Part shown: positions 8,607 to 12,083 of the stretch, piece by piece | Layout of the letters: every line of letters starts with the position of its first letter | Numbering within the stretch: position 1 is the stretch's first letter | Assembly (NCBI RefSeq): GCF_014490665.1 | Contig: NZ_CP061038.1 | Location: 3,472,001 to 3,536,000, forward strand | DNA length: 64,000 nt | Direction: 5' to 3' | Source: Sphingomonas alpina | GTDB taxonomy: Bacteria > Pseudomonadota > Alphaproteobacteria > Sphingomonadales > Sphingomonadaceae | The notes under the pieces: model-generated | Databases searched by the model: none | What the model saw: the letters and a program-made list of their open reading frames with translations, nothing else | What the model was told of the DNA's origin: nothing | Position numbers and translations under genes: made by a program

Positions 8607-9112
8607 CGATGTTGCTCCAATTCGAAAGAGAAAAATTCCGTCCCGGCGTGCACGATTCTTTCCTTGGCAAGGGCAAAGCCCATGCGTGTCAGGAACCGGA
8701 TCGCGCGGCTGTTCCGGCACGCGACTAGGTTGGTCAGGCGCGGTGTTGAATCGAGCATGGCGGCAATGACGTGCGGCGCGATGCGCAGCATCGCACGCGG
8801 CCGAGCATAGATCATGTCCGAGCCGAGCATCCAGGGTCGCCCCTCGCCGCACAACGCATTGGTCACGACCAGTCCGAACATCGCTTCGGCCCGGCCATCG
8901 ACGAACACCGTCAGGCAGAATGAGGAGGTGACGATCCCCTCGCGCAAGGCCTGTTTCGGGCCATGACCAAGGGCCGCGCATTCGATCCGGTCGTCGTCGC
9001 GCATGCGGTGCGCGATCGGGCCGATATGCGCCGGCGAGGCGGGGCGGAATTCAATCCCCGGATGGAGCGCCCCGCCTTCCCCGCAACCGCGCGAAGAGAC
9101 GAACGGGATCAT
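8585..9112 (-). CDS. Phage Gp13-like (DUF2833) protein with GNAT-like fold
   Basis: This 175-residue protein has the features of the T7 Gp13/DUF2833 virion-assembly family: an early MRDDDRIE segment, AALGHGPKQALREG, a PWMLGSD motif, and a C-terminal LTNLVACRNSRAIRFLTRMGF segment reminiscent of acetyltransferases. In T7-like phages this protein is needed for internal virion assembly. Its ATG overlaps the stop of the upstream tail gene by four bases (ATGA). The acetyltransferase-like appearance could lead to annotation as a GNAT enzyme, but the position between tail and internal virion genes favours the structural or assembly role. Confidence 0.75.
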   Translation of the reverse strand: MIPFVSSRGCGEGGALHPGIEFRPASPAHIGPIAHRMRDDDRIECAALGHGPKQALREGIVTSSFCLTVFVDGRAEAMFGLVVTNALCGEGRPWMLGSDMIYARPRAMLRIAPHVIAAMLDSTPRLTNLVACRNSRAIRFLTRMGFALAKERIVHAGTEFFSFELEQHRCAIPSV

Positions 9113-10881
9113 TCGGAAACACTGGGATCGAGATAGATCGCGCTGACCGTCATCGGCAGCGGATCGTCCGACCGCACCACCACCCTGGCGCCGCCATTGA
9201 GGTCGGGCCGTAAATAGGTCTCGAGCAATCCGGTCTGCAGCGCATTGGCCTGCCCCGGCCTTTCGCGCGTCCGGCCGCGTAGCGGCTCCAGCGTCGCATC
9301 GGTGGGCCCTGTCTTCAGCCCGCGACTGTCGATCACACGGATCACCGCCTTGGCCTGGCTCTGCACCTTGGCGACAGTCCAGCCGCCCTGCCCCTGGACT
9401 GCGAGCGGCAAGGTTTCGATCGTCGCGGAATATGGCAGGCCCGCCGTCACCTTGGTCGCCTTGAACGGCAGGGTCACGACACCGCCGGTCACGGTCAGGC
9501 CTGACACGACATTGCCATCGGCCAGCGCCGAAATGGCCTTGCCCTCGAGATGGTCGAGATTGCGCAGCACCGTCGCCGGCGTCTCGAACTGATAGGTGAC
9601 CGCGCTATCGAGGAAGCAGCAATCCTCGACCTCGGCCCAGCGCGTCGCCGCAATCCGCTCGATCAGCAATTTCCCATTGCGCCTGACCGTCAGATACAGC
9701 CGGTCCTCGGCCCCTTCCGATACCACGCATACGCTTTCGACCAGCCCGTCGGTCTCGCACAACGTCCATCCCCACACCTGCTGTTCCTGTTCCCAGGTGA
9801 AGCAGAGCAATTTCCCGTCATTGCGCACCGCCCAGACGATCGACCGCGGTTCCTGCGCATAGGCCCAGGCCCTGATGTCGAAACCGCGGAACAGATGCGG
9901 CGAGAAGATCGTCACATCGTTGGAATCGATCGAGTCGGTCTGGAACTGATAGCCGAGCGTGCGCACGCCATTGCCGACGCTGGTCTGGTAGAAGCAGACG
10001 CTATCCACCACCAGCGGCGACAGGCGTGACGATCCACGCCCATTCTGCCGCCGCACGACGAAGTCGGTCGCGCTGATATAGCCGCTCTGGCCGCCCTCGA
10101 TCTTGAAGATCGAATCCGATGTCAGCGCGAGCAGGCTGTTCATCGATACCAGCTGATTGACTGCATTGACCCGCCCGGCGACCAGCGCGAAGGACAGCGC
10201 GTCGGAGGCTTTCAACGGCCGCGAGATGTCCATATTCTCGAAGCTGCCCGATCGCGATCCATAGACCGCATTGGGATGGTTGCTGGTCCGACCCCATAAC
10301 AGCCGCTGGTCGATAAAGGTTACGGTGGAGGGCCAGTTGCCCTTGAGTTCGAACGGGTTTTGGCTGACTGGCGGACCATCGGAATAGTCCGGCCCGATAT
10401 TGTCGTCGGTAAAATTCAGCGATGTGGTCGTACCGATATAGCCATATTCCTGCGTGTTATCGGCCTTGAACACGCGGTAGCGCGACGCGCCCGTTGCCCC
10501 AATCCAACTGAGCGAATTATAGTTGCGCTTCAGGGTCAGGTCGTTGCTCGTCGTGACGGATGTGGACGGACGACTTTCAACGCCTGAAACATCGTTCACC
10601 GCAGTAACGACATAGGTTGCCGGTTGCGCGAAATAGCCATCGCCGCTGGTTACCGAATTGTCCGTTACCCGGGTGACCCCCAGACCAGTCGGCTTGGGCA
10701 ATGTCGGCTCGAAGGCAATGCTCGAAAAGGTCCAGTCGGCGTGATTGGTGCGCACCAATTTGGTCGGCGCATGGTCGAGATGCGCCAGATACATGGTATC
10801 GGCCGACTGCTCGAAATCGATCTCGGCCAGTTCATTGCCATTATAGGGCGATCCGGTGCGATAAATGCGCGCGACGCTCAT
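9109..10881 (-). CDS. Phage tail protein, C-terminal part (separately encoded half)
   Basis: This 590-residue protein begins MSVARIYRTGSPYNGNEL and continues with FEQSADTMYLAHLDHAPTKL. In related podoviruses such sequence occurs inside a single long tail protein, downstream of the region represented here by the gene at 10878-12083. Later parts contain a fibronectin-like segment (residues about 55-130) and FIDQRLLWGRTSNHPNAVYGSRSG near residue 190, typical of this tail family. The start ATG overlaps the upstream stop (ATGA), so both halves are probably made in similar amounts. It therefore looks like a tail protein divided into two polypeptides at a Hint-domain insertion. The assembly role is inferred from family and order. 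Confidence 0.8.
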   Translation of the reverse strand: MSVARIYRTGSPYNGNELAEIDFEQSADTMYLAHLDHAPTKLVRTNHADWTFSSIAFEPTLPKPTGLGVTRVTDNSVTSGDGYFAQPATYVVTAVNDVSGVESRPSTSVTTSNDLTLKRNYNSLSWIGATGASRYRVFKADNTQEYGYIGTTTSLNFTDDNIGPDYSDGPPVSQNPFELKGNWPSTVTFIDQRLLWGRTSNHPNAVYGSRSGSFENMDISRPLKASDALSFALVAGRVNAVNQLVSMNSLLALTSDSIFKIEGGQSGYISATDFVVRRQNGRGSSRLSPLVVDSVCFYQTSVGNGVRTLGYQFQTDSIDSNDVTIFSPHLFRGFDIRAWAYAQEPRSIVWAVRNDGKLLCFTWEQEQQVWGWTLCETDGLVESVCVVSEGAEDRLYLTVRRNGKLLIERIAATRWAEVEDCCFLDSAVTYQFETPATVLRNLDHLEGKAISALADGNVVSGLTVTGGVVTLPFKATKVTAGLPYSATIETLPLAVQGQGGWTVAKVQSQAKAVIRVIDSRGLKTGPTDATLEPLRGRTRERPGQANALQTGLLETYLRPDLNGGARVVVRSDDPLPMTVSAIYLDPSVSE

Positions 10882-12083
10882 TGGTATGAATTTTCCTTGA
10901 AATTGTGCGACAGCACGCCGGCGGAGACATAGGTCTGCGCGTCAGCAACCGTGATGCGCGCAACCAGTGCCTCGCCATCGGGCGCGCCGATCTCGTCCAT
11001 CCGCACCCAGCGGTCGTGCCAGAAACGATGTCCGGCGGTGGCGCGCGGATGCCCCTCGGCACGCCATACCGGTGCGGTGTGGAACGAGATCGCGGTGACC
11101 GGATAGCTGCCCCATTCCAGCGTCCGCGCGTGGCGCGTGCGCAGCAGGTCGCCGATATGCACCAGATGCGCTTCCTTCTCGCGGCCATCGGCCATCAGGA
11201 TCATCGTATCGACGGTGACGCAGTGCCCACCGAACCCGCCGCCGCCACCGACATCGGGCGGCGGAGGCGGTGGTGATGGCGGAGGCACAGCTGGCGGCGG
11301 CGGCGGCGGCGCAGGTGGCGAAACTCGCGTCGTGCCGCCCGTGTCGGAGTTCGGAACGAACGGCGTGAAACCGGTCGAATCGACATCGATGGTAAAGCTG
11401 TGGAGAGCCACGGCCAGCACGCGCGCGACACGGCCGTTCAGTTCGGTCATGCTTTCGATGCCGGAGAAATAGACCTGATCGCCAACGGCATAGCTGTGAT
11501 AATCGGCCTCGATCACCGTGGTCGTGCCAAGTGTGATCGCCTTGATGGTGAGCTTTTCCTCAATCACCAATCCGCCATTCGCGGCGGGGCGCATATAGCC
11601 CTGCCCCATTTCCAGCGCGTAGGTCTGGGTCAGCGAGAATTGAAACGGGAACAGCCGTACCGCCGCGGGCATGGTTGCGAAGATGCTGGTTGGCCCAACT
11701 GCCGGAGTCTGGGCCGGGCTGACGATATAGGTGCCGGCCTTGCCGTTGCCTGTGCCGTAGCCGGTGATGATCGTCCCGGTGGCAATGCCCGTTCCGGTGA
11801 TCGTCTGCCCGACGGCAAGGCCGCCCGATGTGACATCGCCATCGGCCGCGACGGTCAGCACAGCGCCCATGATGCTTCCGGTGAAGCGCGCCTCGCTGGT
11901 ATCGGCGTAGACCTGCGCGACCAGCCTTGTGCCCGGTCGCTTGGTGACGCCGCCATATTTGAGGATCGTGACATTGCGCGCACGGCGCAGTCCGACCTGA
12001 TAGGCGGCGACATCGACGCGCGCGAGCAGGTCTTCGCTGATCTCGCCCTTGCTGAAATTGGGCTGGCCGGTACGCATCGCCAT
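10878..12083 (-). CDS. Phage tail protein N-terminal part fused to proline/glycine linker and intein-like Hint (BIL) domain
   Basis: Residues 1-250 match the N-terminal part of a podovirus tail protein, including QPNFSKGEISEDLLARVDVAAYQ and AVRLFPFQFSLTQTYALEMG. Residues about 253-287 are a polyproline then polyglycine linker. Residues 288-394 form a Hint domain: Cys288 starts CVTVDTMILMADG, Thr349-Ala-Gly-His352 is the TxxH block, and His393-Asn394 ends the domain. The residue after Asn is Phe, not Cys, Ser or Thr, and only seven residues follow before the stop. That matches bacterial intein-like (BIL) domains, which cleave but do not splice like canonical inteins. The ATG overlaps the tail tubular gene stop (TGATG). 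Cleavage activity is inferred from the motifs. Confidence 0.85.
   Translation of the reverse strand: MAMRTGQPNFSKGEISEDLLARVDVAAYQVGLRRARNVTILKYGGVTKRPGTRLVAQVYADTSEARFTGSIMGAVLTVAADGDVTSGGLAVGQTITGTGIATGTIITGYGTGNGKAGTYIVSPAQTPAVGPTSIFATMPAAVRLFPFQFSLTQTYALEMGQGYMRPAANGGLVIEEKLTIKAITLGTTTVIEADYHSYAVGDQVYFSGIESMTELNGRVARVLAVALHSFTIDVDSTGFTPFVPNSDTGGTTRVSPPAPPPPPPAVPPPSPPPPPPDVGGGGGFGGHCVTVDTMILMADGREKEAHLVHIGDLLRTRHARTLEWGSYPVTAISFHTAPVWRAEGHPRATAGHRFWHDRWVRMDEIGAPDGEALVARITVADAQTYVSAGVLSHNFKENSYQ

Follow-up and report, generated by a model that had tools for sequence, protein, structure and literature searches.

A BIL-like Hint domain as an optional C-terminal cassette of a two-gene tail nozzle in a Sphingomonas alpina prophage

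Introduction

Which came first, the division of a phage tail gene in two or the intein-like domain that stands at the point of division? This question is raised by a prophage tail block of Sphingomonas alpina, which lies within a bacterial contig of 5.2 Mb and is covered here by a window of 64,000 nt (the whole stretch of DNA analysed; assembly GCF_014490665.1, contig NZ_CP061038.1, positions 3,472,001-3,536,000). On its minus strand, a protein ending in a Hint domain of the bacterial intein-like (BIL) type is followed by a second, overlapping gene, and a first-pass annotation had read the pair as a single tail protein into which a Hint domain had been inserted. As set out below, both proteins together represent one tail nozzle, the Hint is an optional C-terminal cassette in this lineage, and the split occurs with and without it among relatives. 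The features on which the argument rests are the following:

10878..12083, minus strand: open reading frame of 401 amino acids, nozzle N-half plus Hint (phrog_376 at positions 2-67; PDB 8ck1 match)
11223..11318, minus strand: residues 256-287, Pro-rich then Gly-rich linker, ending in His287 before Cys288 (sequence)
10902..11222, minus strand: residues 288-394, Hint (BIL-like) domain of 107 residues (Cys288, T349xxH352, His393-Asn394; fold)
10881..10901, minus strand: seven-residue C-terminal tail FKENSYQ, with Lys396 at +2 (sequence)
10878..10881, minus strand: ATGA overlap of the N-half stop and the C-half start (sequence)
9109..10881, minus strand: nozzle C-half of 590 amino acids, most of a T7-gp12-type nozzle

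Gene split and presence of the Hint domain

The view that the two proteins belong together held up. Set against uninterrupted tail proteins, the N-half and the C-half jointly match one tail nozzle of the T7-gp12 type, the N-half by a profile match to the Tail Nozzle of PDB 8ck1 over residues 13-107 (E 4.6e-24), and the remaining tail half indeed starts in the ATGA overlap. The C-half is 90% identical to its counterpart in Sphingomonas sp. ERG5. Homologues of the N-half number 290 at E<=1e-3; the best 120 of these comprise 106 with a Hint (105 of them full length) and 14 without, some of the latter being incomplete (e.g. P0020, P0092).

For a comparison of gene layouts, 201 loci were collected and classed by hidden Markov models, two scans giving the best 80 matches each, and the proportions of split, fused and Hint-bearing nozzles below are those of this collection, not frequencies in nature. 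Without 25 duplicates of C-halves and a single locus lacking this half, the distinct loci comprise 81 fused nozzles without Hint, none fused with Hint, 57 split without Hint and 24 split with Hint; in a further 13, the N-half lies off the contig, and three of these 13 carry a Hint. The 57 Hint-less nozzles are split at the same place as the Hint-bearing ones, and linkers similar to residues 256-287 occur among them. At least 10 prolines are found in the last 60 residues of 47 of the 57 Hint-less split N-halves and in the 60 residues before Cys1 of all 24 Hint-bearing ones, the maximum in the 60 residues before the C-part of fused nozzles being six (n=81). Additionally, in 53/57 Hint-less and 20/24 Hint-bearing loci, the C-half start codon begins on the final base of the N-half stop codon or 3 bases ahead of that base. 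Splitting of the gene, mostly combined with a flexible Pro/Gly end, does not depend on the presence of the Hint.

Two loci have their nozzle halves 923 bases apart. In L007, the N-half-Hint gene and the C-half are separated by a membrane-transporter-like gene of opposite orientation (4101-4673, minus strand), putatively a manganese efflux pump, and L017 has the same spacing.

Order of events

A quick maximum-likelihood tree was calculated from 102 C-halves, namely 57 split ones without Hint, 28 with Hint (the window included) and 17 of the 81 fused ones, chosen mostly by locus-number order, with short C-halves omitted. On this tree, seven changes are needed for the Hint and two for the fused/split state. 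Rooted on fused nozzles and at equal costs, the tree calls for a single split and a single re-fusion, with the Hint gained six times and lost once, whereas a single Hint gain on the same tree entails 16 losses. A uniformly split clade had been considered as well and was set aside: L087 and L112 are fused, are placed among the split nozzles, carry a Met where the C-half would start and are read as re-fusions. Distances between Hint domains and between nozzles are correlated (Mantel r 0.86, 25 rows); hence, the Hint is mostly inherited together with its nozzle. Replacement between close nozzles occurs too, as seen in L019 and L023, whose C-halves are 95% and whose Hints are 66% identical.

These data bear on the alternative that a Hint or intein entered a single nozzle gene, that cleavage or a later stop divided this gene, and that the Hint-less split genes lost the domain afterwards. 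The undivided state of the outgroup and the position of the Hint exactly at the split would agree with such a history, but it requires the 16 losses in place of six gains and one loss, and it meets a deep-branching L041 without Hint as well as a next deep group in which L036, L038, L040 and L044 lack the domain and L045 alone carries it. As, moreover, fused nozzles with Hint are absent from the collection and cassette replacement is seen, this history is considered very improbable. Division of the gene by the Hint, as suggested by the first-pass annotation, was therefore rejected on account of the 57 Hint-less splits, the 0/81 fused nozzles with Hint and the balance of gains and losses, while its other part, that one ancestral nozzle is now encoded by two genes, stands. 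Most simply, the two genes were separate before the Hint arrived; for the nozzle family as a whole, the undivided gene is the older state.

Residues, fold and constraint of the Hint domain

At the residue level, the domain is as first described: the Pro-rich then Gly-rich linker, the length of 107 residues, Cys288, T349-H352 and His393-Asn394 were all recovered from the sequence, and so was the BIL-like end without a +1 nucleophile, with Phe at +1 and only seven residues in total behind the Asn. It thus combines the characters of an A-type BIL domain, namely Cys1 with a block-B TxxH, a C-terminal His-Asn without Cys/Ser/Thr at +1 (His393-Asn394-Phe395) and the Hint fold (structural model, Foldseek), and it sits in a variable linker, yet within a conserved phage nozzle protein. 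Two characters of canonical inteins are lacking: position +1 is Phe395 here and Cys/Ser/Thr in 0/105 nozzle relatives, and the domain does not interrupt one continuous host protein, with the stop seven residues past the Hint and a separate start for the C-half. The best Foldseek match of the domain is BIL2 of Tetrahymena (6y75, 6tmm; E 9.6e-7). The Hint of the window falls short of the curated cut-off of the Pfam family PT-HINT (pretoxin Hint), which gave no match for it at E<=1; 3 of 18 relatives are matched, with a best E of 0.0094.

Block B, searched with the permissive pattern [T/S]xxH, is present in 105/105 full-length nozzle Hints, as are Cys1 and SHN, for which the ends were partly preselected by the full-length filter. 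An alignment of 18 relatives, the most distant with 38-40% identity to the Hint of the window, retains Cys1, His and HN throughout, and dN/dS of the domain is 0.12-0.34 (eight pairs). Because the active-site residues are conserved and dN/dS is in this range, the Hint is suggested to be still autoprocessing, which we regard as likely. A dead Hint serving as structural cap is, by comparison, the least probable of the alternatives discussed here: the fold could be kept for structure alone, and activity is only predicted, but the block-B His is found in all 105 nozzle Hints, and Cys1, His and HN persist across the aligned relatives.

Lysine behind the terminal asparagine

All 105 full-length nozzle Hints carry a lysine at +1 or +2 behind the terminal Asn, and Lys396 (+2) in the window is this family-wide lysine. 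The +1 residues are I (46), K (33), L (16), V (5), A (3) and F (2), never Cys, Ser or Thr. The same Hint ends eleven J-type central fibre proteins of siphophages, and here lysine stands at +2 in 11/11; nine of the J-type proteins were scanned and matched phrog_5616 (9/9), phrog_31 (7/9) and PF13550 (7/9).

Viral contigs were scanned with a DNA pattern that covers the final residues of the domain and leaves +1 and +2 free, giving 111 stretches. The resulting wider set holds 83 distinct Hint ends at >=50 bits, 81 from the pattern scan and two from another search; nine are identical to ends of the nozzle/J-type set and 74 are not, and 15 belong to recognisable nozzle N-halves. Lysine occupies +1 or +2 in 80 of the 83 (64/67 C-terminal, 16/16 internal) and in 44/46 clusters at 70% identity, the exceptions being L216 (cut by the contig end), L306 (IRK) and L303 (ISN). 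Thr is found at +1 in 2/83. Low-scoring, true-intein-like ends have Cys/Ser/Thr at +1 in 6/7. As background, lysine makes up 1.25% of the last 20 residues in 48 distinct Hint-less N-halves, 12 of which contain one. The counts of lysines do not stand for independent events; on the nozzle tree, they span the six inferred gains. Bacterial PT-HINT proteins gave 0/5 readable ends with lysine at +1 or +2, too few to weigh.

Since the nozzle tails behind the Hint vary from 5 to 14 residues, the position of the lysine is fixed relative to the Hint and not to the start of the next gene. An AAGGAA in the tail-coding stretch is a possible ribosome-binding site for the C-half. Conservation of the lysine merely as part of such a site was rejected, as it stays at +1 or +2 in tails of all these lengths and also occurs in J-type proteins. 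As to an acceptor of the BUBL/BIL2 type, the lysine conserved at +1 or +2 would be a candidate. That this lysine is the preferred acyl acceptor is a tentative proposal which we hold at somewhat less than even probability.

The same Hint in other proteins

Internal Lys-flanked Hints occur in proteins of about 1,765-2,235 amino acids on viral contigs (L278, L289, L218, L310, L236, L230 and similar). Several of them lie between Pro-rich stretches, and one of these proteins has a weak baseplate-type match (phrog_438, E 2.1e-4). In L213, two nearby tail genes (798-1883 and 2280-4730, plus strand), of the phrog_2048 and J types, each end in a Hint. With the Hint of the window as sole query at E<=0.01, whereby distant Hints are missed, 0/72,556 plasmid records and 1/50,697 phage records were matched. 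A profile search of genomes of the host family returned 6/397, the own genome included and two being weak, and a search of the own genome with the Pfam family Vint led nowhere.

Proposed mechanism and alternatives

In the mechanism proposed here, both chains would come together without a covalent bond to form a single nozzle, whose platform barrel would be completed by the N-half. The Hint would fold in cis, and an N-S acyl shift at Cys288, aided by His352, would yield a thioester at the Gly-rich C-terminus (...GGFGGH). In established intein chemistry, the Cys1 thioester must be resolved by water or an amine if a +1 nucleophile is missing. As Cys, Ser and Thr do not occur at +1, an amine would be the attacker, most likely the side chain of Lys396 or otherwise the alpha-amine freed by cyclisation of Asn394. 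Thereby, the Hint would be released, and the N-half would keep a flexible Gly-rich end, either linked again to the short tail or blocked by a different amine. After maturation, it would look much like the N-halves of relatives that lack a Hint. As a whole, this explanation, a two-gene nozzle with an optional autoprocessing Hint whose thioester is resolved by an amine, appears slightly more probable than its negation.

Several points weigh against it. The inferred number of Hint gains depends on the costs applied, a gain:loss cost of 3 giving four gains and five losses and a cost of 6 one gain and 16 losses; a history with one early gain, close to the root of the split clade, is formally allowed and becomes the cheaper one when a gain is charged at about six losses. 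The tree is a quick one, with 22/99 inner branches weak and long branches including L005, L041 and L065. Furthermore, a conserved lysine at +1 or +2 would also fit a mere helper role.

A stronger version holds that a Hint family widespread in phage tails uses the lysine directly behind its terminal Asn as acyl acceptor and forms an isopeptide bond, in cis to the tail or in trans (with a neighbouring tail subunit or a host-surface amine), as the counterpart in phages of the reaction by which ciliate BIL2 dispenses ubiquitin without ATP. This version is doubtful, and trans-linking to other virion proteins is its bolder extension. In the form of a covalent linker, the Hint thioester would react with a lysine on a different virion protein or with an amine of the host surface, so that the N-half or the tip of the J fibre would be covalently anchored in the way in which BIL2 dispenses a ubiquitin-like protein. 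The conserved position of the lysine, the occurrence of the Hint on several kinds of tail protein and the best Foldseek match to BIL2, for which isopeptide chemistry is reported (PMC8616854), would speak for it; however, self-capping is simpler with a lysine in cis, and such a linker is considered distinctly unlikely.

Alternatively, the Hint may be a selfish or neutral BIL cassette, i.e. a small element of the splicing type which persists where a flexible C-terminal linker tolerates it and which either rejoins its flanks or just excises itself, with no benefit for the phage. The patchy distribution and the replacement of the cassette are consistent with this, the product would resemble the Hint-less form, and 107 residues leave no room for an endonuclease, as in mini-inteins. 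Yet dN/dS is 0.12-0.34 despite the lack of a visible mobility function, and the repeated C-terminal placement on tail proteins looks like a selected position; this possibility is rated as rather improbable.

Further segments, neighbouring genes and the rest of the prophage

Apart from linker and Hint, the N-half contains three further segments, and the nozzle is flanked by two tail-block genes:

11886..12083, minus strand: residues 1-66, N-terminal nozzle segment (phrog_376 and 8ck1 matches)
11667..11885, minus strand: residues 67-139, extra beta-strand segment, absent from relatives of about 325 amino acids (tail-fibre PHROG matches, strands in the model, segment spacing of relatives)
11355..11528, minus strand: residues 186-243, E1_FCCH-like domain (PF16190, E 1.6e-8)
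12083..12679, minus strand: tail protein of 198 amino acids, upstream neighbour (phrog_394, E 4.4e-40; phrog_9239, E 1.3e-10)
8585..9112, minus strand: internal virion protein, downstream neighbour (phrog_308, E 2.5e-31; PF11090, E 0.017, below cut-off)

By analogy with T7 gp12, residues 1-66 probably supply strands to the platform barrel (PMC6702177). Matches to part of tail-fibre PHROGs cover residues 56-134 (phrog_38233) and 60-129 (phrog_21413); no structure match is claimed for residues 67-139. The E1_FCCH-like domain, named after ubiquitin-activating enzymes, is found in many of these nozzle proteins and is present too in the undivided nozzle of Vibrio phage MZH0603 (L005).

The order on the minus strand is tail protein, 401-residue protein, 590-residue protein and the internal virion proteins phrog_308 and phrog_418. 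From its position and a tail tubular PHROG, the 198-residue protein is probably a T7 gp11-like adaptor, and the phrog_308 protein weakly resembles T7 gp13. A tail protein with a SASA carbohydrate-esterase domain at 2373-4904 (minus strand) is possibly a tailspike.

Homologues of a podophage portal (40196-41647) and of gp048c from Caulobacter phage SR18 (38093-39031), which in SR18 adjoins the annotated capsid gene, lie on the same minus strand as the tail block (2376-12679). About 25 kb separate the two groups, and the genes examined in between appear to belong to the host (DUF4291, RNase H, VIT domain, exosortase, histidine kinase), whereas the corresponding genes of SR18 lie within a few kb. 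The prophage looks split by insertion or rearrangement. The large terminase of SR18 found no match in the own genome, and a second, distant portal homologue (24% identity) is located in the same genome at G000:C1:4639590-4641176.

Comparison with known systems

Hint and BIL domains as such are known; their placement at the ends of tail proteins with a lysine behind the Asn was not found in the literature searched. This negative, which covers terminal Hints of tail nozzle and J proteins as well as the lysine behind their Asn, is a weak one, with most subscription papers and the original BIL papers outside the search. Phage inteins and Hint insertions are known from terminase, ribonucleotide-reductase-type and other genes (PMC3556154, PMC5526547, PMC5259590), and BILs have been placed in variable regions of non-conserved bacterial proteins (PMC7765530, PMC5874633). 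If the Lys-flanked Hints act, many environmental phages have tail proteins with an inbuilt ligase or self-cutter that virion models leave out of account, and the two-gene nozzle with its lysine motif makes this chemistry directly testable with one small protein.

With canonical inteins and mini-inteins, the domain has the fold and the catalytic blocks in common, but here there is neither a Cys/Ser/Thr at +1 nor a continuous C-extein. Compared to A-type BIL domains such as that of C. thermocellum (2lwy), it stands at the very C-terminus of phage tail proteins, followed by 5-14 residues and with lysine at +1 or +2; no statement on whether published A-type BILs share the lysine was found in the literature searched.

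With BIL2 from the BUBL1 locus of Tetrahymena thermophila (6y75, 6tmm), the top Foldseek match, the domain shares a Gly-rich end before Cys1 (RGG in BUBL; PMC9200820). According to its authors, BIL2 forms an isopeptide bond, for which a lysine in the adjoining downstream ubl5 was proposed as nucleophile, and also conjugates ubl4 to other substrates (PMC8616854). In contrast to the present case, BIL2 is located between ubiquitin-like domains and its acceptor lysine lies in ubl5; in the N-half, Pfam at E<=1 indicated no ubiquitin-like domain, only E1_FCCH and one match below the cut-off. Finally, both halves together match T7 gp12-type nozzles such as those of Carin1 (8ck1), phage BPP-1 (Bbp13) and phage SR18 (gp044c), and a homologue of gp043c, the gene adjoining gp044c in SR18, also adjoins the nozzle of the window. 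Unlike these undivided nozzles, the nozzle of this clade is encoded by two overlapping genes, the first of which bears a Pro/Gly tail.

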